NCBI GenBank assembly: GCA_037039925.1
Contig: JAXRKP010000414.1
Span: forward strand, 177,501 to 241,500
Length of the DNA: 64,000 nt
Direction: 5' to 3'
Source: Doris montereyensis
Lineage: Eukaryota; Mollusca; Gastropoda; Nudibranchia; Dorididae
Notes under the pieces: model-generated
Databases searched by the model: none
Told to the model about the DNA's origin: nothing
The model's input: the letters and a program-made list of their open reading frames with translations, nothing else
Made by a program: the position numbers and the translations under genes
Shown here: piece after piece, positions 1,401 through 24,269 of the stretch
How positions within the stretch are numbered: the first letter of the stretch is position 1
Layout of the letters: every line of letters begins with the position of its first letter

Positions 1401-1446
1401 ATTTCAGAGGCGAAAGCAGTTGTTTTTGGTGAAAATTTACATCAAG
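1401..1446 (+). CDS. SLC27A: SLC27A exon a (46 bp)
   Basis: Follows a CTTAG acceptor, reads [15 protein letters not shown] and ends in phase 1 before GTAAAT. It corresponds to the conserved segment of FATPs just after the first nucleotide-binding half (SGAKALIFG-like). Joining the final G to CT of the next exon gives an uninterrupted ...[10 protein letters not shown]. An alternative acceptor at 1406 (TTTCAG) would remove two residues. The exon is short, so the call rests on motif and phase agreement. Confidence 0.75.
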
Positions 1447-4400
1447 GTAAATAATAGCTTTTGTTTCATTACCATATAAAACTAGGAGATTGTGTCCTTT
1501 TATAAATGTATTTGTTTCATATATATTTATTCTCCTGCTTTCTTTATTTCTGCCTTAAATTTGATTAAAATATGGTTCTGACTTTAATTTTCATTCCACT
1601 AGATTGAATCAATTTTGTTGCTTTCTGTCTATGAAAATGTTTCTTTTAATGATTTTTTTTATTCCGCTTTACTTTCTTTGTTCATTTAAACCTTTTTTTA
1701 AAAATAGAGTGCTTTTGAAGTAGAAATTGAATTGAAGAATTACGTTTGTTGTGTAGGGGTTGTAGTGCTATGTTGCCTCATGTCAAAGAAGGAACGAAGG
1801 ACTAAATGCACACTTTGGGATGCACAACTCCAGGGTTGAATCTCACGTAGAAAGACAATAAAACTACTGTGCTGAATGCATGACCGAAGATTAGCGGGTT
1901 GCATCCTCATTCCGTTATCACCATTATCAGTCCCTTGTGATTGTCAAAGAGCCGCAAGCATCTGTTGCTTTAGTACAGTCACTATTAACACTCACCTTAT
2001 CGTATCAGACAAAGTCTAGCCTGGTGCTGCATTATGTGAACCGTGAACGATCTCCTAGTCAGCTGTCGGGGTGAGAGTGACCATAGGGACTAAACACTAC
2101 AATGAGAGTGACCATAGGGACTAAGCGCTACAATGAGAGTGACCATAGGGACTAAACACTACAATGAGAGTGACCCTGGGACTAAACACTACAATGAGAG
2201 TGACCCTAGGGACTAAACACTGCAATGAGAGTGACCATAGGGACTAAACACTACAATGAGAGTGACCCTAGGGACTAAACACTGCAATGAGAGTGACCAT
2301 AGGGACTAAACACTGCAATGAGAGTGACCATAGGGACTAAACACTGCAATGAGAGTGACCATAGGGACTAAACACTACAATGAGAGTGACCCTAGGGACT
2401 AAACACTACAATGAGAGTAGGGACTAAACCCCTAGGGACTAAACACTACAATGAGAGTGACCCTAGGGACTAAACACTACAATGAGAGTGACCCTAGGGA
2501 CTAAACACTACAATGAGAGTGACCATAGGGACTAAACACTACAATGAGAGTGACTACAATAGAGAGGACCCTAGGGAACACTACAATGAGAGTGACCAAT
2601 GAGAGTGACCCTGGGACTAAACACTACGATGAGAACGAATACACTATTAGTATGTTTTTACTATGTATTTAAATGTCGATTTCATTAGAACGTGCTGAAT
2701 TTCAAAACAAAAACACAAATGCAAAAGGCGTAACAGGATTATTTTACGATGGAATTGAGATAACGGCTGAAAAACAAAGATGCGTATCTCATGATACGTC
2801 CCTGTCACTCTCTCTTTCTCCAAAAACAAAAGACGTATCAACGATTATAACTAAAATATTGAATTTATTGAAATTTTGATGTAAGTGTGGGTTCGATAAC
2901 GGTGACATAGATATTCTATAAAAAACCCATAGTTTTATGACTGATTATAACGAAATAAAAGTTTTTCGTCCCTTCTGAAAAGTTGCTATTTCGTGATACA
3001 CCCCTGTTCCATCACGTCCGTGATATGTAAGAAGTGTCTGGGTTCAATTTTGCTTGATATTTTTTCTCCAAATTGACTTCTCCTGTTGTTGCACAATTGG
3101 TAGTTTTGCGAGTTTGTAATTACGACGACTGGTTTAATACTCTGACTTGTCATGCTTTTTGTTGTTGTTGAGATGTTGCACTCTCAGGAAAGGTGTACTT
3201 TATTCCGCTTTCCTCAGTGTATGTTCCCCAGCAAGACTTTGAACGCGGCGCATGTGGGGGTATACAAATTGAATAATTAAATATCCATCTTTATCTTCAT
3301 CTTTGACAGTCTTTTTCTTTTTCACTAGTGTTTAATTGCTTTTATTCAGTGCTTCTTAGGATAGTTTCTAACGGAAATAATGTATGACTGTTTTTCCTTT
3401 TTTCCCCCTTCAAAACTCCTGTTTTAGCTTGATGAAGTTGCCTTTAGTAATATTTTCCATCAATAGGAAAAATATATTCAAAACATTTATTTGTATTAAT
3501 TATTGTGATTTTTTATTAATTAAAATTTTACTTATCTCGTATCTATCAATCTGAATTTATTCTCTCTTTTTTTTTGTATCAGCTGTCAGTGATGTTAAGT
3601 CAAGCTTGAAAGATCAAATGTCCTTTTTTCATCTCGGGACATCGACTCCCGCAAACTTTCCGTGTGTTAGTTTGGACTCTGCCATCCAAAAGATTCCTTC
3701 CCAAGAGCCGCCATATGCAGACTGTTCATGCACAGGTATGTGTAACTTAAGACGTTGTCAGATGGGGGTTTTTTCCACATGTCTATCATTATTTGCTGTT
3801 GTGTTATATATCATCTGTGAAACTGTCTAAACATATAAGTCTGTATGATGTAAGTTTTCAGGAAAAGTAAAAGGTGTAATAAATCATCGAATAGGCTTGT
3901 AAAGACTATGTCATACTTCTTGGATTTCACTTTAATAAATGGTTTACTCATTAGAATGTAGTAATGGAAAGAAATAATGAGTTTTGAACCAAATGGACTT
4001 ACACAGGTAGAGTTGAACCTTTTGCAAGATTTAAACATGTAAATCCACCCCTTTAACTAGGTTAGAGTTTCCAAGGTTTTATGAATAACGGAAATCTGTC
4101 TTTAGACCAAGTGGAGCCTGTCTATTGGATCAAGACCTCCAATATTTATAAAAACAGGAAAGAAGCGTACATATGAAGAACACATCTCATGTCCCATATA
4201 TCATGGACTTACGCATTTAGACAGTTTTACTGACGATATAGGAGTTTGGATACGATGTGTGAAGCCTTGTCTTGCCACATACAAATATATGGCCAGTGCT
4301 ATTCTGAAATTTCAAGTTGAAATTTGAGTACATGAATTTTTATGATTTCTCTACTTTTTCTTTGTTATTTTTTTTGTGGGTTTTTTATGCTTTATTTTAA

Positions 4401-7400
4401 AAATTTTATACACATATATGAATTGGTATAATTTAATGAAGGAGAAGAAGAATTCAAATAATAATATAATTGATTTGTATAGCACCTATATCTTCTACTC
4501 AATGGCGTTTCACATATACAGCATGAACATATCTTGCAGTTGTTTCAATAGATAAATAGGTCTATGTGAGATAATACTGAAAATATACCTTGCAGTGTTT
4601 CAATAGATACATATGTGAAATAACACTAAAACATACCTTGCAGTGTTTCAGTAGATAAATAGGTCTATGTGAGATAACACTAAAACATACCTTGCAGTGT
4701 TTCAATAGATAAATAGGTCTATATGATAACACTGAGATGAACATTCCAGCAAACATACCTTGCAGTGTTTCAATAGATAAATAAGTCTATGTGAGATAAC
4801 ACTAAAACGTACCTTGCAGTCTTTCAATAGATAAATAGGTCTATATAAGATAACACTAAGATTGAGACCATTCCAGCATAAAACATACCTTGCAGTGTTT
4901 CAATAGATAAATAAGTCTATGTGTGGAAACACTAAAACATACTTTGCAGTGTTTCAATAGATAAATAGGTCTGAGGTAACACTAAACATACTTTGCAGTG
5001 TTTCAATAGATAAATAGGTCTATGTGTGAGATAACACTAAAACATACTTTGCAGTGTTTCAATAGATAAATAGGTCTATCTGAGATAACACTAAAACATA
5101 CCTTGCAGTGTTTCAATAGATAAATAGGTCTATGTGAGATAACACTAAAACATACCTTGCAGTGTTTCAATAGATAAATAGGTCTATGTGAGATAACACT
5201 AAAACATACCTTGCAGTGTTTCAATAGATAAATAGGTCTATGTGAGATAACACTAAAATAAGATTGAGACCATTCCAGCATGAACATACCTTGCAGTGTT
5301 TCAATAGATAAATAGGTCTATGTGAGATAACACTAAAAAATACCTTGCAGTGTTTCAATTGATAAATAGGTCTATGTGAGATAACACTAAAATATACCTT
5401 GCAGTGTTTCAATACATAAATAGGTCTATGTGAGATAACACTAAAATAAAACCAGTGTTTTGATAAATACGTTAAATAGGTTTCAATCAGAAATCTATGT
5501 GAGATAACACTAAAATATACATTTTACAATGTTTCAATAGATAAAATCTATTGAGAGAAACAAAATAGTCAGTTGCAGTGTTTCAAATAGTCATTATCAG
5601 AATCACAGTGGTACAGTGCAGTGTTTCAATAGATAAATAGGTCTGTGAGGAAATAACCTTGCAGTGTTTCAATAATAATAGGTCTATGTGAGATAACACT
5701 TTAAATAGTCATTATCAGAATTTCAGTAGATCAATTGTCCTACATGAAATAGCCATTATCAGAATCACAGTGGTCAGTGTTTCAATACATGAAATAGTCC
5801 ATTATCAGAATACAGTGGTCAGTTGTCAATGCATGAAATAGCCATTATGTGAGAATCACTAAAATAGGGGTCAGTTGTCCAATGAAATAGCCATTATCAG
5901 AGATAACAGTGGTCAGTTGCAGTGTTTCAATAATAGCCAGGTTATGTGAATAACAGTAAAATATAGTTGTCCTGTTTCAAATAGAGGGGGACTCAGTGAG
6001 ATCATTATCATAATCACAGTGGTCAGTGTTTCTTACATAAAATAGTCCATGAACAGAATCACTAGTGGTCAGTTGTCCTTCAAGTAGAGGGGGACTTGGT
6101 AGTCATCAGAATGACAGTGGTCAGTTGTCCTTCTTGAAATAGAGGGGGACTTGAAAGTTAAAATCATTATCAGAAACACAAGGGTCAGTTGTCCTGCTTC
6201 AAATAGAGGGGGACTCAGTATTCAGTATCAGAATGACAGTGGTCAGTTGTCCTGTTTCAAATAAATGACCATTATCAGAATCACAGCGGTCAGTTGTCCT
6301 GCTTTAAATAGTTCAGAATCACAGTGGTCAGGTCTGCATGGTAGTCATTATCAGAATCACAGTAGTCAGTTGTCCTGCATGAAAAATAGTCATTATCAGA
6401 ATCACAGTGGTCAGTTGTCCTACATGAAATAGCCATTATCAGAATCACAGTGGTCAGTTGTCCTGCTTCAAATAGAGGGGGACTCAGTAGTCATTATCAA
6501 AATCGCCAGTGGTCAGTTGTCTTGCTTGAAATAGTCATTATCAGAATCACAGTGGTCAGTTGTCCTTCAAGTGAAATAGCCAGTCATCAGAATCACAGTG
6601 GTCAGTTGTTGCTTGAAATAGAGGGGGAATAACCATTATCAGAATCACAGTGGTCAGTTGTACTGCTTCAAATAGAGGGGGACCATTATCAGAATCACAG
6701 TGGTCAGTTGTCCTGTTTCAAATAGAGGGACCATTATCAGAATCACAGTGGTCAGTTGTCCTGCTTCAAATAGTCTCAGTAGTCATTATCAGAATCACAG
6801 TAGTCAGTTGTCCTGCATGAAATAGAGGGGGACTCAGTAGTCATTATCAGAATCTCAGTGGTCAGTTGTCCTGCTTCAAATAGGGGACCATTATAAGAAT
6901 CACAGTGGTCAGTTGTCCCTTCAAATAGAGGGGGATTTGATAGTCATCAGAATCACAGTGATCAATTGTCCTGCTTGAAAATAGTGGGGACTTGATAGTA
7001 ATTATCAGAATCACAAGGGTCAGTTGTCCTGCTTCAAATAGAGGGGGAATCAGAATAGTGGTCAGTTGTCATTATCAGGGGGAATCAGTCATGGTCAGTC
7101 AGTTGTCCTGCTTCAAAACAGGGGGACTCGGTAGTCGTATCAGAATCACAGTGGTCAGTTGTCCTGCTTGAAATATAGGGGGACTTGGTAGTCATCAGAA
7201 TCACAGTGGTCAGTTGTCCTGCTTCAAATAGGAGGGGGACTCGGTAGTCATAGAATCACAGTGGTCAGTTGTCCTGCTTCGAAATAGTCATCAGAATCAC
7301 AGTGATCAGTTGTCCTGCTTGAAATAGCCATTATCAGAATCACAGTGGTCAGTTGTCCTGCTTGAAATGCTTCAAATAGAAGGGGACTTGGTAGTCAAGA

Positions 7401-10400
7401 GGCAAAGTACTCGGTCACTAGAATCAGTGGTCAGTTGTCCTTAAAGGAATTGTGTTGTTTGAAAAGCCATTATCAGAATCCAAGTGTTGCTTCCACTTTT
7501 TTTTCGAGTTTTTTATGTTTCAAAAAATGTTGCCCCCCTGGTCCAGGTAGGTGGATTGACACCTAGTCCCATCAGAGACAGACGATAAGAAGTAGGTTCA
7601 TTATGCATATCACAACACCCTGTGCACGTTAAAGATCCCTTGGCTGTTTACAAGGCAGTCCAGACAAAATAGAACTCCTGCCCAAACCCCGAGATCACCT
7701 TAGTTGTGGATGTGGGTAAATCAAATCAAATCAAATTCGCACGGAGTGGTAATCAAATTTGGTCTACGGTTGTCACAAATTTCATTCGCATTTTGTATTG
7801 ACTTTCAAATTCTCTTTCCAAATGAGAACCTCTGAGTTCTTTTTCTCAAAAAACAATTTTATGTGTAGTAAGAACAGTGTAATTTCTTTCTTTCTTTCTT
7901 TATCAGCTCCGATTCTACCTTGGGTATGGGTTTTAGATGCCCGAAATGATCTTTCTTTCTCTATGAGCTCCGATTCTACCTTCCGGTGTATGGGTTTTAG
8001 ATGCCGAAATGATCTTTTTTTTCGATTCTATCAGATCCGAAATGATCTTTTCTGACCTTCGGTGTATGGGTTTTAGATGCCCGAAATGATCTTTCTCCAG
8101 GCTGCCTTGTCCTGACATTTTCTGTTTCCTTCCGTGAAAGTTAAATTTGTTTTTGTTAATGCCTCTTTTATATCTTCTTCCACTTTCTCCGAGGTCTGCC
8201 TTTTGGTCTTTTACCTTGAGTTTTAGTACTGTATACTGATTTAGCTATTCTGTTGTCATTCATTCTGTTAAAATGCTCAAACCATCTCAGTTGATTCATT
8301 TCTATCTTAGTTTTTATGCTATCTGCTTTGGTTTGATCTCTTATTGTTGTGTTTCTGATTTTGTCTCTTTTAGTTTTCCCTACTTCTCTTCTTAGATATT
8401 TTATTTCAGCTGCCTGCACTCTACTGTATTCCCTACTGTCTAAGGTCCAGGTTTCACTGGCATAGAGGAGAGTAGGACAATAAACTGTGTTGTATACTGC
8501 CATTTTAGTTTTTGTTGACAATTCTTGTTTACCTACAAATGCCTTTTCTAGATGGTTATATATTGCACTTGCCTTTTGGATTCTCTTGCTGATTTCTTCT
8601 CTTACTTTTCCCTCTGAGTTAATCATTACTCCTAAGTAATTGTAGCTTTGAACTTGTTCCAAATTCTTCCTGCCTAATTTAAGATTTTGTGTTTTAGCTT
8701 CCCTAGTTACTAGCATTGTTTTGGTTTTCTTTGCATTTACTCTCATTCCTCTTTTATGTAATTTATTTTTTCATTATGTTGATATTTGACTTGAGGTCCT
8801 TTCTGATTTTCCAAACAGAACTAAATCATCAGCAAATAAAAGCATTGATACATTTACTGGTTTATGTGTAGTAAAAACAATGTAATTTCTGAGCTGACGA
8901 TTAGTTGGAATCGTTAAAAAAAAAAAAAGTTCTGTTATAATTTACTTTTCATATTTCTGTAACTCATTAATTTTTGTTTTACTTTTATTTATTTATGTTT
9001 TCCATCTGTCTACTTGCTAGATTGTCTGTTTTATATCTACACGTCTGGCACTACTGGCCTTCCCAAAGCTGCCATTGTAACACATTTGAGGTACGTAGAA
9101 AAACCCCCATTTTCAATAAAGGTAAAACACATGTTTGGTAATGCATGGATGATTGGAAGAGAAGGAGAGGAGGTGAAATAGAAATGGCGATGATTTTCTT
9201 TTTCTTGTGTGAATGATATATTTTTTGGTGTGAATAAATCTGTGCGCAAGAAGTCGACAACAAGGTGAACACGTTTACAAAATCAAACAATTTTGCTCAA
9301 CAACAATGTTACTACAGTCTGAATTCAAGGTCGTGAAAGCAAAAAGTTTTTTATTTCTTGTTAACACATGCAAATGACAAATCTGATGTGGGGAATTTAT
9401 TTTTTTGTTTTGTTATAATTTTGTCTTTGTTTGATTTCATGCATATATATAGTGTTTCAGTTACTGTTTGCTATGCTTTGCTTGTTTTATGTTTGTTTTT
9501 GTCTTGAATTGTTTTTATGAGGGCGTGGGACTCAGTGGTCCAGAAACAAGGTGTTGGCTTCTCAACCCAAGGGTTGTGGGTTCAAACTGGTTTAAATATT
9601 TTCTCAAATTTTTCGTGTAAAATCCGCCCCTCTGCTCCAGGTAGATGGATCGACACCTAGTCCCATCGGACATGGACAATCGAAGGCAAGTTCTGGGTGC
9701 AGATCACAAAGTTCTGTGCACATTAAAGATCCCTTGACAGTTGACAAGCAGCTGAGGCAAAATTTAAATACTAATCAAAATACTACCGAAACCCAGATCA
9801 CCTAATTGGTCAATATGGGTAAAATCAAATCAAAGCCAGATCACCTAATTGGTCGATGTGGGTGAAATCAAATCAAAGCCAAATCACCTAATTGGTCAAT
9901 GTGGGTGAAATCAAATCAAACCCAACAATTTCCAGATGAGGGCATGTGGTGTTAAATCAAAGCCAGTTGTTGGCTTGTTTTGATTTTGTTTTTGATCACC
10001 TAATTTTTTGTCTTACAATTTAATATAAATATGTACTTTTGTTTGTTTTTTTTGTTTTGTTTTAATATGTTTGACAATTAATTTGCATTTAAAATGATAT
10101 AATGATGGCATAAAAAATGATAAAAAATATTTTTAAAAACATAGAATTTGAACTCAATCAATTCTTCTGTGGAAGAAACAAACTTTAAAATTGTATGTAT
10201 AAGCAATAAATCTTAATTAATTTTCACAAGGGAAAGAAATATTGAAACAAATTGCTTATTTTCATGTCTCATGATTTTGTTCACTTTAGTAGTGCTATTT
10301 TGTTTATTTTAACATTTAAATAATTTTTTTAAAGAACAACCTACCTTCTTTTTCTTCTTCTTCTTCTTCTTCTTCTTCTTCTTCTTCTTCTTCTTCTTCT

Positions 10401-13400
10401 TCTTCTTCTTCTTCTTCTTCTTCTTCTTCTCCTCCTCCTCCTCCTTCTCCTCCTCCTCCTTCTTCTCCTCCTTCTTCTTCTTCTTCTTCTTCTTCTTCTT
10501 CTTCTTCTTCTTCTTCTTCTTCTTCTTCTTCTTCTTCTTCTTCTTCTTCTTCTTCTTCTTCTTCTTCTTCTCCTCTTCTTCTTTTTCTTTTTCGTCTTCT
10601 TCTTCATCATCATCATCATAGCAACTGACCAATTCAATTCTTAAGTATTACTGTCAGTGTGCATGATTTGGTCCATTTGGAATTTAACTACCTGCTTATA
10701 ATATGATATACGTATTTTTTAGTGTACTCGTTTAGTCGTATGAGTCTTTATATTTTGTGTGTGTCCTTCTATCATTTGAATCAGGTTCTTTTATATGGCC
10801 TATGCAATGAGTTTGTTCATGAAAATCACAAAAGACGACGTTGTCTACACAGCCTTGCCCCTTTATCACACAGCCGGGTGGCATTCTTGGCTTGGACAGG
10901 CCATCGTGGCATTCTTGGCACATTGGACAGGCCATTCTTGGCATTGACAGGAGCCGTTGCCCTACGGGCAAAGTTCTCCGCCAGTCAGTTTTGGATTGAT
11001 TGTGTAAAGTACAAAGCTACGGTAAGGGTACAAGAACGGTGGTAAGGTACAAAGCTATGGTAAGGGTACAAAGCTACATGATAGTTGCGGTACAAAGCTA
11101 CGGTAAGGGTACAAAGCTACGGTAAGGGTACAAAGCTAGGGTAAGGGTACAAAGCTACGGGTAAGGGTACAAAGCTAGGGTAATGGGTACAAAGCTACGG
11201 TAAGGGTACAAAGCTAGGGTAAGGGTACAAAGCTGATAAGGATACAAAGTTATGGTAAGGATACAAAGCTACGGTAAGGATACAAAGCTACGGTAAGGGT
11301 ACAAAGCTACGGTAAGGGTACAAAGCTACGGTAAGGGTGCAAAGCTTCAGTAAGGGTACAAAGCTACGGTACGGTGCAAAGCTACGGTAAGGGTACAAAG
11401 GGCACAAGCTACTCTGATAAGGGTACAAAGCTATGGTAAGGGTACAAAGCTACGGTAAGGGTACAACCTATGATAAGGGTACAAAGCTAGGGTAAGGGTA
11501 CAAAGCTATGGGTACAAAGCTATGGTAAGGGTACAAAGCTATGGTAAGGGTACAAAGCTACGGTAAGGGTACAAAGCTATGGTAAGGGTACAAAGCTATG
11601 GTAAAGGGTACAAAGCTAGGGTAGGTACAAAGCTATGGTAAGGGTACAAAGCTATGGTAAGGGTACAAAGCTATGGTAAGGGTACAAAGCTAAGGGTACA
11701 AAGTTATGGTAAGGGTACAAAGCTATGGTAAGGGGTACAAAGTTATGGTAAAGGTACAAAGCTAGGGTATGGGTACAAAGTTATGGTAAGGGTACAAAGC
11801 TATGGTAAGGGTACAAAGCTATGGTAAGGGTACAAAGCTATGGTTAGGGTACAAAGCTAGGGTAAGGGTACAAAGCTACAGTTAAGAGTTTGGAGTGATT
11901 GTGTTAAGTACAAATCTACTGTAAGAGTTTGGAGGATTGTGTTAAGTACAAATCTACTGTAAGAGTTTGGAGTTATTGTGGTACAAATCTACTGTAAGAG
12001 TTTGGAGTGATTGTGTTAGGTACAAACTTACTGTAAGAGTTTGGAGTGATTGTGTTAAGTACAAATCTTACTGTAAGAGTTTGGAGTGATTGTGTACATG
12101 CAAATTACTGTAAGGTTTGGAGTGATTGTGTTAAGTACAAAGCTTTAAGAGTTGAGTACATTAAGTACAAAGCTACAGGAAGAGTTTGGAGTGATTGTGT
12201 TAAGTACAAAGCAGACAGGAAGAATTTTGAGTTTGTGTTAAGTTAAAGCTACAGGAAGAGTTTACCTCATCCCCTGTACAAATCTATCTTGTTTTAAAAG
12301 AGTTTGGAGTGAGTTTATGTTCAAATCATTACAAAGCTACAGGAAAAGTTTGTAGACAGTCCAGTACATTATGTTCAAAAGCTACAGGAAGAGTTTCAAA
12401 TCAGTGACAGCCCATTACACAGTCAGTTACATTATGTTCAAATCACTGCAGACAGTCCAGTTTTTACATTATGTTCAAATTGTTGATGACAGTCCATTAC
12501 ATTATGTTCAAAATTGTTGATGGTTTACCTCAAATCCAGTAGACAGCCCATTACATTATGTTCAAATCACTTTTACCCATTCATTATGTTCAAATCATTG
12601 TTGACAGCCCATTACTGTTATGTTCAAATTTTACCTCATCCCATGACATTAGAATGTTCATGGTTTACCCTCATCCCTGTTAGAATTGTTGATGTTTTAT
12701 GTTCATCCCCTGTTAGCCCATTGTTGTTTTATCTCATCTTGTTTTAGAATTGGTTTGCAGACAGAAGGTTTATGTTCAAATCATTGCAGACAGTCCAGTA
12801 CATTATGTTCAAATTTAGACAACCCATTACATTATGTTCAAATCATTGCAGACAGTCCATTACATTATGTTCAAATCACTGTAGACAAACTATTACATTA
12901 TGTTCAAATCTTGTTTTAGAATTGGTTTTGCAGACAGTCTATTACATTATGTTCAAATCATTGCAGACAAACCCATTACATTATGTTCAAATCACTGTAG
13001 ACAGCCCATTACATTATGTTCAAATCATTGCAGACAGCCCATTACATTATGTTCAAATCACTGTAGACAGCCCAGTACATTATGTTCAAATCATTGTAGA
13101 CAGCCCATTACATTATGTTCAAATCATTGCAGACAGCCCAGTACATTATGTTCAAATCATTTTAGACAGCCCATTACATTATGTTCAAATCATTTTAGAC
13201 AGCCCATTACATTATGTTCAAATCATTGCAGACAGCCCATTACATTATGTTCAAATCATTGTAGACAGCCCATTACATTATGTTCAAATCATTGCAGACA
13301 GCCCATTACATTATGTTCAAATCATTGCAGACAGCCCATTACATTATGTTCAAATGTTGCAGACAGCCCAAATCATTATGTTCAAATCATTGCAGACAGC

Positions 13401-16400
13401 CCATTACATTATGTTCAAATCATTGCAGACAGCCCATTACATTATGTTCAAATCATTGCAGACAGCCCATTACATTATGTTCAAATCATTGCAGACAGCC
13501 CATTACATTATGTTCAAATCATTGCAGACAGCCCATTACATTATGTTCAAATCACAATCTATTACAGACAGCCCATTACATTATCAAATATGTTCATTAT
13601 GTTCAAATCATTGCAGACAGCCCAGTACATTATGTTCAAATTATTGCAGACAGCCCATTACATTATGTTCAAATCATTGCAGACAGCCCATTACATTATG
13701 TTCAAATCATTGCAGACAGCCCATTACATTATGTTCAAATCATTGCAGACAGCCCATTATTTTCATTATGTTCAAATCATTGCATTACATTAGACAGACC
13801 CATTACATTATGTTCAAATCATTGTTCAGAGACAGCCCATTACATTATGTTCAAATCATTGCAGACAGCCCAGTACATTGGTGAAATCTGTCGCTACTTG
13901 TTAGCACAGCCACATCGGGCCCGAGGAGACGAGCCATTCCGTGAGACTCGTGTATGGCAACGGCATCAAACCACAGATTTGGACGCAGTTTCAAGAGCGT
14001 TTCAAGGTCAAGTTCATCGGTGAATTTTATGGAGCCACTGAGGGAAATTGCAATGTTGGTATGTGAATGTTAGTTTTTAAAAAAATCAACTTTCAATGTT
14101 GTCGAGTGTCGGCGGTTAATCCGTTACAAAGTACTAACTTCCACACTTTCATTCATATTCCTCGTGTCTACCTATTTGCTTCTCAGTCTCAATTCCAATT
14201 GTTTAATTTGATCGTCCATTTATGTTTTTTTAAATTTTCATATACCACATGTTATAATTTTCTGTGTTTTATGCTGCTACAGTAAATTTTATATCAAAGG
14301 TAAAAACAATTACAGGGTAAAAAATTAATAGCTGCAAAACTGGGTATTTAATTGTGAGTGGACAGAGTTACGGCAGGGGGGAGGGGGAGATGATATACCC
14401 AATATGCTAGAGTTTATTTATCCCAATTTCCATAGTGACATTTTTATCCCTTTTTGTTTTTTTCATCTTCAGTTATAATTTCAATGTAACTTTGTTTACC
14501 ATTGTAAAATGTTACACTTGTTACGCTCAATTTGTGTGGGTTTTTTTCCAGTTAATACTGAAAACCGCGTTGGTGCAGTTGGTTTCTGCTCTCGAATTTT
14601 ACCATTCGTGTACCCAGTGACCTTGGCAAAGATCAACCCAGAAACCAATGAGCTGGTGAGGGACAAATACGGCGTTTGTGTCAAATCAAAACCAGGTATG
14701 TTGATTGTCATTGTTGCTGTTGTTATCAGTGTTGTTATCATATTTTTGTTGTTGTTGCATGGGCGGTTGATGAGTGTGGCTGATAGGTCCTACTGCTTTT
14801 CCTTTCACTCTGTCACATGTCTTCCATCTTGGTGTTTCCTCTTAATTTGTGAGTTGTTGATGGGAGTGGCTGATAGGTCCTACTGCTTTCCTTTCACTCT
14901 ATCACATGTCTTCCATCTTGGTGTTTCCTCTTAATTTGTGGGTTGTTGGTGGGAGATGCTGGTAGGCCCTACTGTTAGGTTTTACTTCTTTCCGTTCAAT
15001 CTTTCTCTTATCTATTTATATCTTTATATCGTCTCCTGTGAGATCACTGCTTATGGCAAACTGAGTAAATGTCGATGAAAAAGTTGTCAACATGATTTTT
15101 TTTATTCAACTCAAAGAATGATTGCTATAAGAGGTGTTTTTCTCTTTTTACTGTCATTATCACAGCGTCTAATCAGAGATTTAGAAAGTAGTCATACTAA
15201 GTGAGGTCCTGTTTTGTTTAAGACTTTAACGATAAATCCAGTCTTATTGTTTTGGATGGTTTAAAAAAAATTTTTTTTTATCTGCCAGGGGAACCAGGCG
15301 AGCTGGTCGGCAAGATCATCGAGTCAAACCCTCTGCGCCAGTTTGACGGATATGTCGACAGCAAGGCAACAAGCAAGAAAGTAATTTATGATGTCTTCAA
15401 GAAGGGTGACATGGCTTTCTCTACTGGTGAGTTGACAAAGAATCAGAAAATGCCCTGCCATGAAAGTGGTGTCGGTGGCCGAGTGATTAGGCTGAAGGAC
15501 AGGATCATGAGATCTCAGTTTCGAATCCTAGCAAAACTAGAGCCGACGCTGTGTTCCTTTGGACAGACACTTAACACGTAATTTCCCCATTCAACCTAGG
15601 GGGACTAGCTTGGGAGTAAAATCCTGTGTCATGACTAGTGTCCTGTCCCGCTCACACCATAGAAACAGAGATAAACTTGGGCTCTACGGGCTGCAATGGT
15701 CTTGAAGGAATTTTAGCACTAACTGCCATGCTGGCACTAACTGCCATGCTGGCATGCCAGCACTAACTGCCATGCTAGCACTAACTGCCATGCTGGCACT
15801 AACTGCCTAATGCTGGCACTAACTGCCATGCTAGCACTAACTGCCATGCTGGCACTAACTGCCATGCTGGCACTAACTGCCATGCACTAACTGCCATGCT
15901 AGCACTAACTGCCATGCTAGCACTAACTGCCATGCTAGCACTAAACTAGCACTAACCATGCTAGCACTAACTGCCATGCTAGCACTAACTGCCATGTTGG
16001 CACCAACTGCCATGCTAGCACTAACTGCCACTGTAACAAAAAGAGCACCAGTGCCATGTGCACTAACTGCTAGACATGTTAAGGCACTAACTGCCATGCT
16101 AGAAATAACTGCCATGCTAGTGGTAGTTGGGACATTTTCACTTATGCCATGCTGATAACTGCCATTTTGGGCATAAGATGAATTTGCTAGTTATTGTGAC
16201 CTTGGTGGCACTAACTGCCATGGAGGGATTGCAATGCTATTTTAACTGCCATATATACTAAATATAGCCATGATGGCACTAACTGCCATTGGTTTTCAGT
16301 ATTAGCACATGCATTGGCACAAATAGAGCAGGGATGTACATCTTTCAGATTTCCTCTGATTTTAGATTATTTGAGGTTTGGTAGTTTTGACATATTTTTC

Positions 16401-19400
16401 ATTATGTTTGATTTTCTTCGATTTTACTCAAATATTTCTATGTTGGCACCTATTTTTTGTTATGAATAGGTGAGATGGTTTAGCACAATAAAATAAAAAT
16501 TCTCAATTTTGCTATCAAGCCGATTTTCATACTAATCATAGAGAGATTTAGATAGCACCAATTGGATTTTCAGTATTGGGCACTGCCTTTCACTTTCACA
16601 ACAAACTACAATTTCCACACTGGATCCGTGAGGCCATGATTTTAGCTACTTGCACCAGAAGATTTCTAGATTTAAGAATCCAACCTTTTTACTAGCTTTC
16701 AGATTTTATTATGCCTGAAAGCTACTCAACCATTTGTTGTGGCTATTTTTTGCACATAATAGGTGAATAGATTTAGCCCAATGTTGAAATGGCACCAACT
16801 GCCATGCTGGCCCAACCCAGGTCCATTGCCATGCTAATCTGCTAGGCCATGCTTTCACCAACTGCCACAACAAACTACCATTTTACACTAATGCGTGCTG
16901 GCATTTACTGAGACTGCCATTTGCTAGAATCTAATTGTGATCTTTACTAATATAGATCTAGATCTAGACAAGTTTAAGATCGGTAACTGCCATGCTAGCA
17001 GTAACTTAGATTCTAAATCTAACTAGCCATGCCGGCACTATGCCATAGCACTCTAGGCCATAGCTTTCCCACTAACTTGCCATAGCTAGGGTTAGTATAT
17101 AACAAAAAGCCAGTGTGTATATATTTCTAAATAGAAATATAGATCTAGCTTGTCAACAGTTTTAAAATTATTTCTTGATGGTGTTCCAGCACATACGTTG
17201 TTGATTTAGATCCAGATCTAGATTCTTCTAGATTTAGATTGTAGGTGGACAGGCTATTTATGATAGATCTGGATTTAATCTAATAAGATCTATATAAGAT
17301 ATGTCTAGATCTAAGTCTTAATTGTTATCTAGAGGCCTACAAACTACTAGACTAGATTTAGATAACTAGGTCAGAATGTGTTGCACCCATTTTCTTCAAT
17401 AACTTTTGTAGTTTTAAGTTAGATTTCTAGATCTACTTGGTAAAATAGTTAATAGAATCAGAATTGATTTAGAATTTTGCTATGACTGTTATAATAACAA
17501 GCAAAACTTCAAAACAACTAACTTTAGATCTGGGTTAAAGGTAAGCTAGCTCCAGAATGTAGATCAAGACAATTTAACAAATTGGGGATGACCTGTCAAA
17601 AGTTTAGGTTTAATGATCGGGATTCACCAGTAGATGTGATTGACCTAGAATAGATCGAAGTTCTAAGTAAATGAACAAATTCCCGCTGTCAACTAAAGAT
17701 TGTAATGATGAATTCCTTTCTAGTTATATTAGGGAGGTTAAGAAAGATGGCATTGCATGGTGCTGTTATTGTAAGTGTGAGATTAAATACGGTACAGGAG
17801 ACGTTCGGTGTCTGATAGTTTCACATTTTAGAGACTTTCAGATGATTTTTTTTCATTTATCATTTACATCCCTGTATATATATATATATATACATTTATT
17901 TTGCCAAGAAGTAGGAACATTGGTGGGTCATTTTTCAAAACCCGAAATTGCACTGCGTTGTTTTGTTCGATTGCTATTTCAACTCAGGAATTAAGATGTC
18001 TTTTCCAGGTGACATACTGGTGATGGATGACCTTGGATTTATGTATTTCCGTGACCGCACTGGCGATACCTTCAAGTGGCGTGGCGAGAACGTGAGCACC
18101 AGTGAGGTGGAGGCGATTGTCAGTAACGCCGCTCAACCTGAGTGATGCTGTTGTTTATGGTGTAGAGGTTCACGGTCAGTGTGAAACATAAATACAGTTT
18201 GTTTTAGTCTATGATAAAATAGTTTCTTGGGAAGTGGATTCTTTCTGGTGTCTCCTGCTGGACAAATTTTTTCTTTTCTTTACATTCTTGTTTGAATCTT
18301 TTGTGATATGTTACAAGAAGTATATTTTTAAAAGCTAGTTACATCAGTATCAGGAAAATACAATAAAATAACGTTTGATTCTTTGATGTATTTGAAAAGT
18401 CACTTTTACAATTATTGATGGTACATTTTGATGGTAGACAGCCAACATGGGAAAAGTCCAAATGAATTGACTTATATTTTATATTTAGTTTTGCAAATGA
18501 TTTGCTAAGTTTATAATATACTCACTAGTTATTGTGCTAATGTGTATTGCATACTTAGATTCCTTGTAATGATATCTTTATGTACATGATTGTAATAAAT
18601 TGAGGGGGTGGTAAACATGTGTGGATGAAACGGCATGAAGTTTGTAATGGGGGGGGGGGGGATGGAAATGTATTCGAAAGTTTAAGTGCCACAATGACCT
18701 TAGGATGAATGCTGATGCCTTCCCTAAAATAGCCCTCAGATGGACCCCTCAGGGAACAAGGAAGAGAGGTCGCCCACTAGAAACCTGAAGGAGAAGCATA
18801 AAAAAAGAGATGAAGATCCAGGATTGGACTTGGTGGCAGAAGACAAAATTGGCATCTGATCGTGTTCAATGGGGATCCACTGTTCGGCTTTTTATGCTGC
18901 CAAAGCACCATGAGGATAAGTCTAAGTCTATGATTTTGGAGTCCAGAAAGTTGTATTTTAGAGAGCTTTGAAACATTGTTTTTCCAACTCTAGCTATGAA
19001 CCCCTGGCTACTCCGAAAAGTTAATTAAAGTCAGTGGATTATGAAAATAAGAATCAAGCAACAAGTCTGACCATTTTTCAAAAAAATTTCTTCCCGTCAC
19101 CAGGTTGTGATTTTTGTCTTTTCCAGGTGACATACTGGTGATGAGAATGAACCATTGATGTCAAACTCTTGGCTGACTCATTTGACCGCTCCTTCACCGT
19201 GGCGTATGCTAAACCAATGTTTCTAGTGAGGTGAAAGAAGCAGACACCACAGGTGAGATGTGTGAGTGATGCGTGCATATGTGAGAGAGAGAGATAGTCA
19301 GACAGACATATTTGGAATTCAGTTTGTTTTACCTTTATAGATAGAATTATCAACACAATGTAACAAATTAGTGTATATTTAGACATGAGACTTGTAATAA

Positions 19401-22282
19401 AGGGCAGCACTAAATTAAATGTTTATTTATTACATTCTTATTTGAATCTTTGTGATGTTTTACAAAAATATTTTTTATTCAATTCAACTTTATTGCATCC
19501 GAGAGGGAAATTTGATTTTGGCTGTTGTTAATTTTATTCTTGATTGAGCATTTAGTCATTAACTCTCAATGATTCCAGGGTTTTCTCCCCTTATAAAAGT
19601 TGTGAAGACCTTTTATTCTTTTTACCTCTAAAAACTTTTGACTGAAAACAACCACTCATTTTGTTCAGAAATGTCTGTAGATTTGATTTTTTTTAAGGTT
19701 TAGACAGTTTGTTTGACATGGATTGTAAAAAAAAAATATGTATGAACTTTATGTTCACAAAAACGGACATGAATTTGAAATCACAAAACACCAAGAAGGA
19801 AAAATTCCAGTTTTAGTTTAGACTCATAATTTCTTTATTAAAAGTTAGACAAGTCTTTTGCAAATAATAAAAGTGTATTTTAGCTAAAAAATTCACCATG
19901 GAAGGAAACAATTTTCACAGAAATAAGGGTATCAAAAGGTGGAAAATAAAGCAAAAATAATAAGGTATGCATTTTCAAAGTACGTTTTTGGGTTAATAAT
20001 TTTCTGAACCATGAAATCAAATACACAAACTTTAATAAATATATCCAGGATTTTCCTACCAATTGATCAGATATCGTGTTCAATGGGGATTTTCACCTGT
20101 CAAATTCTGATTATAATCCCTTACTATTGTGGAGTCCAGGATTATTTTTAAAGCTCTGAAAATTGTTCTCCAACTCTAGCTTTGAACCTACGCGTCCATT
20201 CACACAACTGTTAATTAAACTCACTCAGTGAAAATAAAGATTACAAAAACACATCTGACCATTGGCCGTAAAAATGTTCTTCTGTCAGTCCTAGTCTGAT
20301 ACTCAGGAGATGGAGTCTGGGCTCACACTCAGGGAGATGGAGTCTGGGCTCACATTCAGGAGATTGAGTCTTTGACTCACATTCAGGGAGATGGACCAAT
20401 GAGCTCACATTCAGGGAGATGGAGTCAGGGCTCACGCTCAGGTGAGATGGAGTCTGGGCTCACACTCAGGTCGGAATTGAGGCACTGGAGAGTCTTGACA
20501 GACGATCAACCCTCTTGTTCATGATCACCAACTACGGACCTCTTATCTCAAATTAGTGCAGAGCTGGAGAAAAATAAAAGAGCAAAGAATCATTTATTAG
20601 GAGCCTTTTCAAGAAACACTCAAATGTATACATATATCAGTAATAATTTCATTTCATGTAACACTAAATTTGAGTTTTAAAGGGAGGACTACTATAGCTG
20701 GGAATACTGCAATTTCCATTGGGATGAAATTCTTGAGGGATATAACTATTTACCTTGGATAGGGAGGGGGTGCCACAAGAGGGTTGGAGTATTATTATCA
20801 AAGGGTCAGGGATGATCAGATACATTTTCCCAACTATGATTAAGGGAGGACTACCATAGTTGGGTACAAGTGTAAGTTCTCAGCTGGTTTTTGAATGGGC
20901 TGTCAGAGGCACCTAGCTTTGTCCATTTCACAACGGGGGCAGGTTGGGAGTCAGTAAATAAAAGATTACAAAAAACACATCAATGGGGCGTAAAAATGGG
21001 GGTTGGGTGGTGGTTGAAAGTCAGGAGATGGTGATGGGGTGTGCCCGACTATGATAGTAGATCTATCTCCAAATGACTGCAATTCATCAATTCAGTCCTT
21101 TACTTGACAACACTACTAGCCTGCATGATATATTTCATTCAGTTCAGCATGAACAAGAATTTAAAGCCATTTCTAGATACACGCTAGATGTAGATCTAAA
21201 CACTGGTATATCTACATCTAACTTTACTAGAAACAATAGAGCATCTAATGTTGAAAACATAGAATTAGTAACAATACGGCCATCTAGATCTAGTTTCTAG
21301 ACGGAGACATGAACACACAACAGTAAACACACACGCCTTTTACTGAAGACAGGGAGGGTTGGAGTAGAATGGGTCAGTTACTCATCCCGCTGCTCATCTA
21401 ATCAATTTCTGGAACCCATTCCTCATCATAGCTGTCACCCATCATCTCTAGATATGCAATGATATCTTCATCGGGTATTAGTTTCATTTTCAATGAAGAA
21501 ATTCTTGTTCAAAGTGGAGCGGTGAAAAGAGTTGTTATGAGATCAAAATGGCGGATGGAAAACGTAAACAAAGACACGAGGCAAATGCCTACATATTTTC
21601 ACTATTTTTTTCATTATTTAATTAATTATTTTGATGAAAATCTGTTTTCAGGGCACAATTATCTCTATATTTTCATAGAAATATGAAAAAGTATTGAAAT
21701 AATGCAAAACAACACTTAAATAAATCTGCAGTAAAGGGGGGGGGTGGTGGCATTGATCACTGGTGATTGATTTTCCTTGTTTGGAATCGTTGAGAGTTAA
21801 GAGAGATTGATATTTCAAAAAGTTATTTACTGGAATCACTCTTAAATTTGTGTTTGACATTTGAATTTAAAGACATTGTCAACAGATTACGTATTTCACA
21901 AAAATCAATCAATCTTTCTTAATGACTAAATGCTCAATCAAGAATTAAATCATCTCCCAGACGAAAACCTATCTTACAGAGATTTATATAAGCTCATAAT
22001 TATCTGTATATTATCTGGCTGCAAGATTTGTTTGTGTCTGAAAGATCTGTTTGTAACTATGACAATTATACTTCTGTTACATCCATGTATGTTGTAAATT
22101 TATTTCTTGTTGTTTGTATATTCAGGTACATTCAAATTGAAGAAGGTCAAATTGCGGGATGAGGGCTTCAACCCAAACAATATCAAGGACAGAATGTTTT
22201 ATTTTGATAGCCCATCTCGATCCTACCAACCTTGACACCAACAGTTTATGAGGGTATCATCTCAGGCAAAGTGCGAATTTAA
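1401..22282 (+). CDS. SLC27A: Fatty-acid transport protein / very-long-chain acyl-CoA synthetase (SLC27A family), C-terminal ten exons
   Basis: The family couples uptake of long and very long fatty acids to ATP-dependent CoA thioesterification at ER, peroxisomal or plasma membranes. Ten exons were found: 1401-1446, 3583-3735, 9021-9090, 10785-11021, 13865-14058, 14552-14695, 15289-15426, 18009-18174, 19127-19252 and 22126-22282. Diagnostic motifs in order are the AMP-binding P-loop [89 protein letters not shown] and [15 protein letters not shown]. Splice phases agree from exon to exon. The start and roughly the first 200 residues lie left of the window. Five exons carry small indels, so this is either a decaying gene or a sequence with consensus errors. 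FATP1/4-like is most likely, but the paralogue is not resolved. Confidence 0.9.
2064..2632. repeat. 31-bp minisatellite
   Basis: About 18 units starting TGAGAGTGACCATAGGGACT and continuing through AAACACTACAA. The main variants are CCATAGGG versus CCCTAGGG. Units become truncated and rearranged after 2410. The array lies in the SLC27A intron between exons 1401-1446 and 3583-3735. Confidence 0.92.
3095..3250 (+). mobile_element. SINE-like fragment
   Basis: Resembles 62735-62885 in order: GAGTTTGTAA, a GACGAC block, a later AGGAAAGGT block and a T/C-rich end. The pair indicates a dispersed short element. The head has a weak resemblance to a tRNA B box, and the family is not identified. Confidence 0.45.
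3583..3735 (+). CDS. SLC27A: SLC27A exon b (153 bp)
   Basis: Acceptor is a T-rich tract ending TATCAG; donor is GTATGT at 3736. Starting in phase 1 it reads [19 protein letters not shown] and continues to PPYADCSCT. This is the variable linker preceding the AMP-binding loop in FATPs. The last G joins AT of exon 9021 to give Asp, keeping the frame open. No indel is seen. Confidence 0.85.
4440..4512. repeat. Dispersed repeat end (ATA-rich plus TATAGCACCTATAT)
   Basis: ATAATA followed by TTGTATAGCACCTATATC and GGCGTTTCACATATA. A similar block, ATA repeats plus CATATAGTGCCAATATCC, occurs at 23325-23400, and the reverse arrangement at 26335-26395. This looks like the 3' end of a widespread retroelement family. 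Confidence 0.4.
4513..5700. repeat. 54-bp minisatellite
   Basis: About 20 units containing CTTGCAGTGTTTCAATAGAT followed by AAATAGGTCTATGTGAGATAACACTAAAACATAC. Some units are shortened to about 45 bp, and a few carry an inserted GAGACCATTCCAGCATGAAC block. From about 5450 units are scrambled and mixed with the next array. It lies in the intron 3736-9020 of SLC27A. Confidence 0.92.
5700..7460. repeat. About 57-bp minisatellite
   Basis: Roughly 30 units built on CATTATCAGAATCACAGTGG, TCAGTTGTCCTGCTTCAAAT and AGAGGGGGACTCAGTAGT. Unit length is irregular because parts are missing in many copies. Its left boundary is a hybrid zone with the preceding 54-bp array. Confidence 0.9.
7530..7735 (+). 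mobile_element. SINE body, headless copy
   Basis: Matches the body of the SINE at 9519-9760: GGTCCAGGTAGGTGGAT, CACCTAGTCCCATC, a GCACGTTAAAGATCCCTTGG block, CCGAGATCACC, and a tail of repeated AAATC. The tRNA-like head is absent, so it is 5' truncated. Confidence 0.65.
7880..8112. repeat. About 65-bp tandem repeat, 3-4 copies
   Basis: Copies share GATGCCCGAAATGATCTTTC, GAGCTCCGATTCTACC and GGTGTATGGGTTTTAGA. It sits between the SINE body and the LINE remnant in the same SLC27A intron. Copies differ by small deletions. Confidence 0.8.
8168..8850 (-). pseudogene. LINE reverse transcriptase remnant (C-terminal part)
   Basis: On the minus strand, 8850-8780 reads [18 protein letters not shown], the FADD catalytic box of a non-LTR reverse transcriptase. 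After a short frame break a 192-codon open frame (8746-8168) continues with [46 protein letters not shown] and GRPRRKW. These are typical of the thumb and C-terminal region of RTE/CR1-type elements. The endonuclease and the N-terminal reverse transcriptase are missing, so the element is 5' truncated and dead. It is inserted antisense in an SLC27A intron. Confidence 0.85.
9021..9090 (+). CDS. SLC27A: SLC27A exon c, AMP-binding P-loop (70 bp)
   Basis: Acceptor CTTGCTAG, donor GTACGT. It enters in phase 1 and leaves in phase 2, reading [20 protein letters not shown] then THLR. The [YI]TSGTTGLPK signature binds ATP phosphates in all adenylate-forming acyl-CoA synthetases. The exon is intact and is the most diagnostic piece of the gene. 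Confidence 0.95.
9519..9765 (+). mobile_element. tRNA-derived SINE
   Basis: The head at 9524-9592 has A-box-like GGACTCAGTGGTCCAGAA and B-box-like GTGGGTTCAAACT. The body is shared with 7530-7735 (GGATCGACACCTAGTCCCAT, ATTAAAGATCCCTTGACAG). RNA polymerase III internal promoter elements are inferred from the tRNA resemblance. No intact tRNA cloverleaf is expected. Confidence 0.7.
9770..9965. repeat. SINE tail expanded to a 43-bp repeat
   Basis: About 3.5 copies of a unit containing GATCACCTAATTGGTCAATG and TGGGTGAAATCAAATCAAAGCC. It is the 3' tail of the preceding SINE repeated in tandem. Confidence 0.8.
10351..10620. repeat. (CTT)n/(CTC)n microsatellite
   Basis: About 265 bp of CTT repeats with blocks of CTC, ending in CATCATCATCAT. 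It lies about 165 bp upstream of the SLC27A exon at 10785. Poly-Lys and poly-Arg open frames on the minus strand are repeat artefacts. Confidence 0.97.
10785..11021 (+). CDS. SLC27A: SLC27A exon d, with internal tandem duplication (237 bp)
   Basis: Acceptor GAATCAG, donor GTAAGGG. One base completes the Arg of the previous exon, then it reads [31 protein letters not shown] and, after a frame change, [15 protein letters not shown] and IDCVKYKAT. Between the two halves (10879-10951) a block of about 28 bp beginning TGGCATTCTTGG is present about 2.5 times. This disrupts the frame with an in-frame TGA. The last 20 bases of this exon with its donor are the unit of the array that follows. Confidence 0.85.
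11005..11880 (+). repeat. About 19-bp minisatellite made of exon end plus splice donor
   Basis: Units read (GG)GTACAAAGCTACGGTAAG with variants CTATGGTAAG and CTAGGGTAAG. I count about 30 exact GTAAG including the genuine donor at 11022. The first unit is the true junction, TACAAAGCTACG at the exon end followed by GTAAGGG. The array therefore begins in coding sequence and runs straight into the intron. Confidence 0.93.
11880..12300 (+). repeat. About 38-bp minisatellite, longer version of the same exon end
   Basis: Units contain GAGTTTGGAGTGATTGTG and TTAAGTACAAATCTACTGTAAG. This parallels the last ~40 bases of exon 10785-11021 and its donor (AGTTTTGGATTGATTGTG, AAAGTACAAAGCTACGGTAAG). It is a second, more diverged subarray from the same exon-intron junction, about 9-10 copies. 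Confidence 0.85.
12300..13864 (+). repeat. 33-bp minisatellite made of splice acceptor plus exon start
   Basis: About 40 units of ATTGCAGACAGCCCATTACA followed by TTATGTTCAAATC. The final unit is the genuine acceptor (ATTGCAG) and start of exon 13865. About 20 copies have exact GCAGACAG, others GTAGACAG or TTAGACAG. Several units carry CCCAGTACATT exactly as in the exon. Because 33 is a multiple of three, all frames stay open for hundreds of codons, giving spurious ORFs. Confidence 0.93.
13865..14058 (+). CDS. SLC27A: SLC27A exon e (194 bp), 1-bp frameshift
   Basis: Acceptor ATTGCAG, donor GTATGT, leaving phase 1. It reads [17 protein letters not shown], then after a one-base shift in the GGGCCC run near 13918-13923, [31 protein letters not shown] and [12 protein letters not shown]. 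This covers the FATP signature around the second half of the AMP-binding domain. Removing one base of the GGGCCC run would restore the expected frame, so this is either a mutation or a homopolymer consensus error. Confidence 0.92.
14552..14695 (+). CDS. SLC27A: SLC27A exon f (144 bp)
   Basis: Acceptor is a T-rich tract ending TTCCAG, donor GTATGT, phase 1 in and out. It reads [34 protein letters not shown] and [14 protein letters not shown]. Intact. In FATPs this segment (NxxNxVGAVGF) follows the EFYGATE motif. Confidence 0.93.
14752..14985. repeat. About 110-bp tandem repeat, 2.3 copies
   Basis: Two near-identical copies of a block including GGCTGATAGGTCCTACTGCT, CACATGTCTTCCATCTTGG and TTTCCTCTTAATTTGTG, then a partial third. 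It starts about 60 bp after the exon 14552-14695. Confidence 0.88.
15289..15426 (+). CDS. SLC27A: SLC27A exon g (138 bp)
   Basis: Acceptor TCTGCCAG, donor GTGAGT, phase 1 in and out. It reads [37 protein letters not shown] and [10 protein letters not shown]. The DGY and ATSKK blocks are characteristic of FATPs. Intact. Confidence 0.95.
15465..15715 (+). mobile_element. tRNA-derived SINE (family with copies at 45.2 and 56.8 kb)
   Basis: Head with A-box-like GGTGGCCGAGTGATTAGG and B-box-like GTTTCGAATCC (about 15519-15529). The body contains AGACACTTAACACG, GGGGGACTAGCTTGGGAGTA, TGTCCTGTCC and GGGCTCTACGGGCTGCAATG. Reverse-oriented copies with the same block order occur at 45200-45460 and 56740-57045. 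It is inserted just downstream of exon 15289-15426. Confidence 0.8.
15716..16300. repeat. 18-bp minisatellite
   Basis: Unit GCACTAACTGCCATGCTA or GCACTAACTGCCATGCTG. It is regular from 15716 to 16050, then increasingly interrupted. It abuts the SINE end. The short open frames in both strands are repeat artefacts. Confidence 0.93.
16301..18008 (+). other. SLC27A intron: degenerate repeat and GATCTAGATC-rich DNA
   Basis: Scattered remains of the 18-bp unit (TGCCATGCTGGCAC, CTAACTTGCCATAG) are mixed with unique sequence to about 17100. From there to 17650 the DNA is rich in TCTAGATC-type motifs. A short TA run lies at 17876-17892. I see no gene. A 108-codon frame from 17671 shows no recognisable domain. 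Confidence 0.5.
18009..18174 (+). CDS. SLC27A: SLC27A exon h (166 bp), 1-bp frameshift
   Basis: Acceptor TTTTCCAG, donor GTCAGT. It reads [39 protein letters not shown] and, after a one-base shift near 18128-18132, [30 protein letters not shown] contains the adenylation-domain hinge motif conserved in FATPs. Without the shift the frame hits TGA 15 codons early. The intron end plus the first ~17 bases recur at 19118-19143. Confidence 0.93.
18705..18930 (+). pseudogene. LINE ORF2 C-terminal fragment
   Basis: Reads approximately [17 protein letters not shown], then a stop, then [20 protein letters not shown] and [19 protein letters not shown]. The RWTPxGxRKRGRP...W...DRxxW...L order is the C-terminal tail of RTE-type non-LTR elements. 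It is truncated at both ends. Confidence 0.75.
19127..19252 (+). CDS. SLC27A: SLC27A exon i (126 bp), chimeric and frameshifted
   Basis: Donor GTGAGA; the end (GACACCACAG) gives ..DTTG in phase 1 and joins GTFK of the last exon. The central part reads [15 protein letters not shown] then AYAKPMFL, matching the FATP region near LPxYAxPxFLR. A shift follows before VKEADTTG. The first ~17 bases and the upstream TCTTTTCCAG are not the expected GRxGMAA segment but a copy of the start of exon 18009. An indel near 19153-19157 is also needed. Exon identity is good; its 5' boundary is not trustworthy. Confidence 0.75.
20294..20472. repeat. 27-bp minisatellite
   Basis: About 6-7 units of GGGCTCACACTCAGGGAGAT followed by GGAGTCT. 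It is nested within the inverted-repeat element at 19529-21952. The segment 20473-21780 that follows is unremarkable, apart from a partial intron-duplication copy near 20957. Confidence 0.85.
21801..21918. mobile_element. 118-bp TTAA-flanked miniature element
   Basis: The insert is bounded by TTAA at 21797-21800 and 21919-21922. Its ends are imperfect inverted repeats: GAGAGATTGAT at the left and ATCAATCTTTC at the right. It interrupts the right arm of the larger inverted repeat exactly at the TTAA. This is consistent with a piggyBac-type MITE and target-site duplication. Small size makes the class uncertain. Confidence 0.5.
22126..22282 (+). CDS. SLC27A: SLC27A last exon (stop at 22280-22282), 1-bp deletion
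   Basis: Acceptor GTATATTCAG. It reads [36 protein letters not shown] and, after a one-base shift near 22237, [16 protein letters not shown] then TAA. This is the canonical FATP C-terminus (GTFK..., Y.PL...Y..I..G..R.). Unshifted, the frame stops at TGA immediately after YQP. An extra T in the CCTTGACA context would restore it. Confidence 0.92.
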
Positions 22283-22581
22283 ACTCTCCATTATTGCAGA
22301 ATATCTGTGTGATTACATCAGCCTTGTTTTGTTTTTCTATTTTTCTTACATTCGATGCAATTTTTTTATTTTAGGGTTTAGGAATATCTCCTGTCACGGT
22401 TTGTTTTTTGTCCAACTTAACGCAATTATAAAAAAATATACTATTGCATCAACGGTTATGATGTAAGTTTGGATTTTTGTTCATCCAAATGAGAAAAAAA
22501 ATGTTTGTAACTGGTTCCTGTTATATCCAGCAAAAATTAATATTGTTTTGTTTTGGTTTTAAACAAAATTATTTAATCAGA

Positions 22582-22587
22582 AATAAA
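22582..22587 (+). other. Candidate polyadenylation signal of SLC27A
   Basis: First AATAAA downstream of the SLC27A stop, about 300 bases after it, in an AT-rich 3' region (22283-22700). Chosen only by motif and position. Confidence 0.4.
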
Positions 22588-22714
22588 GCAAATCATATTT
22601 TTTTAATTTAAGAAATTTTATGATGACAGACATTGATGATGATTGATATGAACAGCTCAAGTCATTCCTAATCATTGTGAGATTTACTTCTATTATAACC
22701 TCTATACATCAAAA

Positions 22715-22900
22715 ATGGTATCATTATTATCATCATCATCTATTATTATTATTTATTGTTATTGCTATTATTATAATTGTTATTATTATTATTGTTATTC
22801 TTCTTCTTCTTATTATTATTATCTATGTTATTTTGTTTTTGTAGTTATTATTGTAATTATTACTATATTATTGTTGTTGTTATTCTTATTCTTCATCTGA
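22715..22900. repeat. (TTA)n/(TTC)n microsatellite, imperfect
   Basis: Degenerate ATT/TTA trinucleotide tract with TTC and TTG interruptions. The Tyr/Leu/Phe-rich open frames here are not genes. The stretch 22901-23320 is AT-rich and I recognise nothing in it. Confidence 0.85.
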
Positions 22901-23324
22901 TCATTGAGTTATCTTGGTACTTTGAAGTCTTCTTTTTTTTTCTTATAATTTACATGAAATGTAATTATTGCAATGATCAAAGATGGGTTTTTTGTATATG
23001 TGACCAATTTAGTGGACACTTTTATGTATTTATCCATATCACATTATTTTTGCTCGCATTGACAGTTAGCTAGCTTCATCATCTTCATCAGATTGAAATT
23101 TATGTTACAGTGTGTACTAGAAGCACTGCAAGCATTTAGATTTGCCATTCAATGTCGATTGATTTTGGTGCATATGATTATAATGATGGCCAACTTTGTA
23201 ATAGAAGCCTGAAAATGCTTGTTTGCAACCGCCAACAACAAAATTGATTAAGTAGTGAGATTTGACACATTTTCTTTTCCAATAATTCACATTTTTAGAT
23301 ATGCTAGGCTTGAGTGCAACTAAT

Positions 23325-24035: not shown

Positions 24036-24269
24036 CCCTACTAACAAATCTGCCAGCCGACTTCGTGGCTGAGCAATTGAAGGTTGGGTCACGACTCACT
24101 AGACTTGGCCTTCTGATTGAAATTACCTGTGGCGCACTTCACCCAAGCTCAATCTAGTGGTAAATCTAGTGGTAGTGGTAGGATCAGAATAGCAAGTATT
24201 TATAAGCTATTAGCATGTACATTATAACTATAACTAGATTTAGATTTACATGTATAATGCACTATAATG

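Follow-up and report, generated by a model that had tools for sequence, protein, structure and literature searches.

Facing arrays of duplicated splice junctions occupy most of one intron in a fatty acid transport protein gene of Doris montereyensis

We analysed a 64,000-nt window of the Doris montereyensis genome (assembly GCA_037039925.1, 513 Mb; contig JAXRKP010000414.1, positions 177,501 to 241,500 of the forward strand), in which an SLC27A/FATP gene on the + strand carries an intron made largely of repeats that copy its own splice junctions. This intron, c/d (11022..13864, + strand, 2843 bp), begins with GTAAGG, ends with TTGCAG and lies between exon c (10785..11021, + strand) and exon d (13865..14058, + strand). 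The joined translation of exons d–g (178 aa) matched long-chain fatty acid transport protein 2 (FATP2), a protein of solved structure, with an E value of 2.6e-43. Joining exons c and d at the outermost sites gave KYKAT/TAQYIGE, which aligned with FATP2 without gaps (E 7e-11), and the outer sites therefore look genuine, as an initial annotation of this DNA had proposed. That annotation had ended the feature at 13872. The intron itself was confirmed, with its authentic acceptor at 13864/13865, which leaves the annotated end 8 bases inside exon d.

Junction-derived units accounted for 2457 of the 2843 intron bases (86.4%), a share first described as nearly all of the intron. On the donor side these comprised 55 units of 19 bp (≤5 edits, counted across the whole intron) and 10 units of 39 bp (≤9 edits). 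The 19-bp unit, GTACAAAGCTAYGGTAAGG, consists of the last 13 nt of exon c followed by the donor GTAAGG, and the first unit of its array (11009..11878, + strand; Tandem Repeats Finder (TRF) and unit list) begins within exon c. In the longer unit (11886..12334, + strand), which had been given as 38 bp but measured 39 bp, GTAA follows ~34 nt taken from the end of exon c; its leftward extension into exon c was significant (P = 0.0025). The donors of the 39-bp units decay toward the middle of the intron, where the inner ones have no GT. On the acceptor side, 38 units of 33 bp (≤9 edits; previously about 40) form an array at 12356..13864 (+ strand; TRF and unit count), whose end TRF places at 13879, within exon d. 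This unit, ACAGCCCATTACATTATGTTCAAATCATTGCAG, combines TTGCAG, 15 nt of the exon d start and a further 12 nt. The exon d share was set at ~15 nt because 33 nt of the exon d start found no copy in the intron at ≤8 edits. A mixed zone (~12260..12770, + strand), which the 39-bp array overlaps past ~12260, interleaves donor-type units, acceptor-type units and a third unit (GTTTACCTCATCCCC...), together with hybrid units. As in the initial annotation, the donor copies lie toward exon c and the acceptor copies toward exon d. The motif counts came out higher than first stated, with 38 GTAAG in 11022-13872 (authentic donor counted; previously about 30) against 31 in the remainder of the window, and 23 copies of GCAGACAG (authentic acceptor counted; previously about 20) against 5. 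Splice dinucleotides were retained by many units, not all, and some cores had decayed.

The similarity of the units to the exon edges far exceeded that of shuffled controls, confirming that the intron is largely composed of duplicated junctions. Queries spanning the two junctions gave 31 donor and 35 acceptor matches, compared to a maximum of 1 each for their shuffled versions (60 shuffles). The last 15 nt of exon c had 43 intron copies at ≤3 edits (60 shuffles: mean 0.25, maximum 12) and the first 15 nt of exon d had 35 (60 shuffles: mean 0.37, maximum 18), whilst 36 nt of the exon c end had 7 copies at ≤9 edits and shuffles had none. This enrichment was confined to particular edges of the gene. 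The test covered 17 edges, all from one gene, together with an end of exon i that was set arbitrarily, and was based on exon boundaries a–i read by eye, the search beginning at exon a. Besides exons c and d, these were exons a (3583-3735), b (9021-9090), e (14552-14695), f (15289-15426), g (18009-18174), h (19127-19252) and i (from 22126), all on the + strand. Arrays were found at just 2 of the 17 edges, the exon c donor (39 junction-crossing copies) and the exon d acceptor (35), and the exon d donor edge gave two weak, distant matches.

The internal structure of the arrays pointed to local growth. Neighbouring units resembled each other more than random pairs did (19-bp unit, P = 0.0005; 33-bp unit, P = 0.02), which is what local expansion would give, and edit distance to the exon edge increased with distance from it on both sides (rho = 0.44 for 58 donor units and 0.55 for 39 acceptor units). 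Among the acceptor units matched by one pattern, 25/30 carried a T where exon d has a G, so most acceptor units were not copied from the exon d edge; exon c's C was kept in 10/28 donor units matched by one pattern. The hybrid units in the middle of the intron suggest exchange between the donor and acceptor arrays. Taken together, we consider it very probable that these are two facing boundary minisatellites (‘mirages’) that arose by ordinary expansions seeded across both junctions, in an intron probably spliced at its outer sites. A short stretch over the exon c/intron junction (19 bp, with a longer 39-bp version) would have been tandemly amplified and, separately, so would a 33-bp stretch over the intron/exon d junction. 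Amplification presumably proceeded by slippage or unequal exchange, as for the arrays that take up much of the genome; either would account for the pattern, as the two are not separable from sequence alone. In a genome so rich in repeats, the arrays are most likely a by-product that does no harm, and we infer that they have no selected function. On this evidence, minisatellites can grow from the ordinary splice junctions at the two ends of the same intron.

The hybrid donor–acceptor units would also fit an intron built from exon sequence, in which a single exonic stretch was tandemly duplicated and the donor and acceptor arose within the copies, with the facing arrays representing still-growing remains and hybrids between them. 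Some tests agreed with such an origin. Within the 33-bp unit, the intronic half was similar to copies of the end of exon c (P = 0.006 and 0.04 for two targets, relative to 970 CAG-ended segments outside the intron), shuffle tests of the same half gave P values of 0.001–0.02 for 5/6 targets, and GTAAGGGTACAA at the intron start resembled the exonic GTAAAGTACAA (P = 0.03). However, the sixth shuffle target gave P = 0.48, the best of three targets against the CAG-ended control gave P = 0.09, anchored extension gave P = 0.08 and 0.15, and local tests of the intronic half against the exons gave P = 0.44–0.75. A further value of P = 0.0005 was due to the stretch of the unit that matches exon d, and the targets were picked after inspection. 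We therefore regard an exonic origin of the whole intron as highly improbable.

The founding paper on mirages, in Adh3, is reportedly Canestro 2002. The initial annotation knew of no described system of this form, yet at least two precede it. In amphioxus, the available parts of the published accounts describe mirages as minisatellites that cross exon–intron boundaries of Adh3, globins, TnC and PGBD5, are found at both 5′ and 3′ boundaries and have been proposed as a source of new introns (PMC3087553, PMC3902484). According to the same sources, many but not all units keep AG/GT, units homogenise whilst cluster boundaries remain distinct, and reverse transcription PCR (RT-PCR) suggests normal splicing. 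The Doris arrays share these features: the unit runs over a real boundary with exon on one side and intron on the other, copies adjoin the authentic boundary (array limits 11009 in exon c and 13879 in exon d), and splice dinucleotides are found in many, not all, units. Signs of concerted evolution were likewise observed, judged without a tree, as neighbours were alike and the boundary copy was set apart. Array length in mirages, a cephalochordate description, would also be unstable between haplotypes or in soma; the present analysis drew on one assembly, in which no second copy was found. The double array thus looks like an extreme case of the mirage type of repeat already described. What is unusual is that, unlike in the amphioxus mirages, both boundaries of one intron are amplified and the arrays mix centrally, filling 86% of the intron, at a copy number (55+10 and 38) well above the 2–7 given for the globin and PGBD5 mirages in those parts of the reports (PMC3087553, PMC3902484). 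No double-ended mirage was found in the literature searched, whose coverage was partial, and we do not claim the case as unreported. With the published boundary-duplication system, as far as its available description goes, this locus shares tandem duplication across an intron–exon boundary; unlike there, no evidence marks intron c/d as new, the P values for an exonic origin ranging from 0.001 to 0.75 by test and target. The double-ended case is relevant to the idea, already in print, that new introns can be seeded by boundary repeats.

A second precedent is the human IFI6 (6-16) minisatellite, which offers multiple splice donors, two downstream units serving as donors (Turri et al. 1995, as summarised in PMC4526556). 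There, as here, repeat units bear splice donors. Donor use is documented for IFI6, whereas in Doris the donors are seen in DNA sequence alone, and the IFI6 summary, in the part available, mentions no acceptor array of the kind present here. The comparison raises the alternative that the arrays act as a splice-choice device, in which isoforms depend on the copy used, as in IFI6, or the inner sites serve recursive splicing or the formation of circular RNA, effects that the initial annotation had put forward as possible. In its favour, GTAAGG terminates 30/58 donor units, and 31/229 inner GTs reach at least 6/9 positions of the U1 consensus; the outer donor itself scores 6, so a simple U1 count puts these inner donors level with it. 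On the acceptor side, the 33-bp unit has no stop in any frame, exon d can be read without a stop as far back as 13265, and six AG/ACA acceptors (authentic included) are in frame inside this open stretch. Against this, the exon c frame meets a stop at 11043-11045 and the 19-bp unit gives a stop in every frame, such that any donor past 11045 would introduce a stop codon. Owing to indels, just 17/36 AG/ACA sites (authentic included) are in frame with exon d. Neither recursive-splicing motif, YAGGTRAG or AGGTRAG, occurs in 11022-13864, where plain AGGT is found 6 times, and published mirages reportedly leave splicing undisturbed. A splice-choice device is accordingly very unlikely. Given the stop codons, most transcripts probably splice from the first donor of the intron to its last acceptor. 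Any inner acceptor in use would bring in repeat sequence without stops, whether in frame or not. With dozens of similar donors and acceptors, the intron offers a large natural test of splice-site choice, and of whether position or context favours the outer sites.

The integrity of the gene bears on two further alternatives. The FATP match shifts frame inside exons c and d and, by our own reading, also in g, h and i; none of the frames of exons d, g and h is open throughout. One of these shifts falls across an imperfect 28-bp tandem duplication in coding exon c (10878..10951, + strand; TRF), which ends 57 bases ahead of the donor array. An exact 29-nt stretch is common to the acceptor regions of exons g and h (17997-18025 and 19115-19143), and exon h seems to start with a copy of the exon g start, made either by templated copying nearby or by faulty assembly. 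The frame breaks may stem from sequence error or from decay, and comparison with other genes favoured neither, since stops were present in 0/15 AMP-binding exon matches elsewhere in the genome but in 40/139 kinase matches (our own count, intron read-through and other pseudogenes included).

If error prevails, the arrays may have been inflated or scrambled by assembly or base calling, the true intron being shorter. The frame breaks in the assembled exons fit this artefact, and there are further grounds for caution. Half of the other sampled contigs (7/14) are sized in exact multiples of 2500, one amphioxus mirage was, in the available part of the report, aberrantly assembled in the draft genome (PMC3087553), and unit length also varies in 3/6 other arrays checked. 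However, several dozen units each have their own substitutions and small indels, a variety that assembly software would hardly be expected to create, and 3/6 of the other arrays checked hold exact period multiples, e.g. 49 bp at 36288-37458, so base quality is not uniformly poor. An artefact of this kind is very unlikely. The contigs with sizes in multiples of 2500 were C100, C900, C1100, C1500, C1700, C1900 and C2100, and the totals of unread bases (N) in the sampled stretches behaved likewise.

If decay prevails, the locus would be a pseudogene in which the arrays are spreading unconstrained, a reading compatible with boundary minisatellites seeded by ordinary expansion. It draws on the same frame shifts and closed frames, on the exact 29-nt copy of the exon g acceptor region with which exon h opens, and on the AMP-binding matches, whose lack of stops shows that coding breaks are not universal in this genome. 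Conversely, the protein motifs are well conserved, as the FATP2 match of exons d–g illustrates, and stops in the kinase matches show that the breaks have company elsewhere. Furthermore, all nine protein matches of the gene in the genome (9/9; 11 candidates scored) lay at its own locus; hence no intact close copy was seen, though distant paralogues could escape. A pseudogene is possible, albeit doubtful.

The repeat background speaks for seeding across junctions by ordinary expansion. Tandem repeats made up 43% of the window, in 51 merged minisatellite loci, and averaged 38% in 14 stretches of 10 kb from other contigs (unread bases scored as non-repeat). A rough chance model, with one seed per merged locus and uniform placement, predicted 0.52 edge-spanning seeds per window and a probability of 0.095 that at least two edges would be hit. 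Coincidence could thus suffice for arrays at both edges, given a genome full of tandem repeats and a modelled 0.8% per window. Other observations weigh against our preferred reading. The model probability for both edges of one intron, 0.0076 per window, is low unless many windows are screened. An exon-edge array was found in 0/15 other AMP-binding exon loci of the genome, in a census that reached 80 nt past each domain match, so that farther edges would escape; the double-array feature is therefore not commonplace. Finally, the assembled exons of the gene contain breaks, so the sequence around them may be of low quality. Among the same 15 loci, a tandem array lay ≤150 nt from the domain match in four, never overlapping it, and one locus (L026) gave a single weak off-diagonal match (67%). 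Within the window, a 54-bp array at 4526-5449 repeats a donor-like CTGCAAGGTATGTT on its reverse strand, with no adjoining exon noticed.

Other genes in the window were sought by Pfam scans. On the + strand these covered 1-10001, 13200-23201, 23500-33501 and 49000-64000 in three frames, and on the − strand 23500-32000 in one frame, 49000-54101 and 54000-64000 in two, and 8100-8802 in three. A DDE_Tnp_1_7 transposase domain (E 1.7e-39), which we take to be of the piggyBac type, lies on the − strand at ~24309-24980, ~2 kb past exon i.

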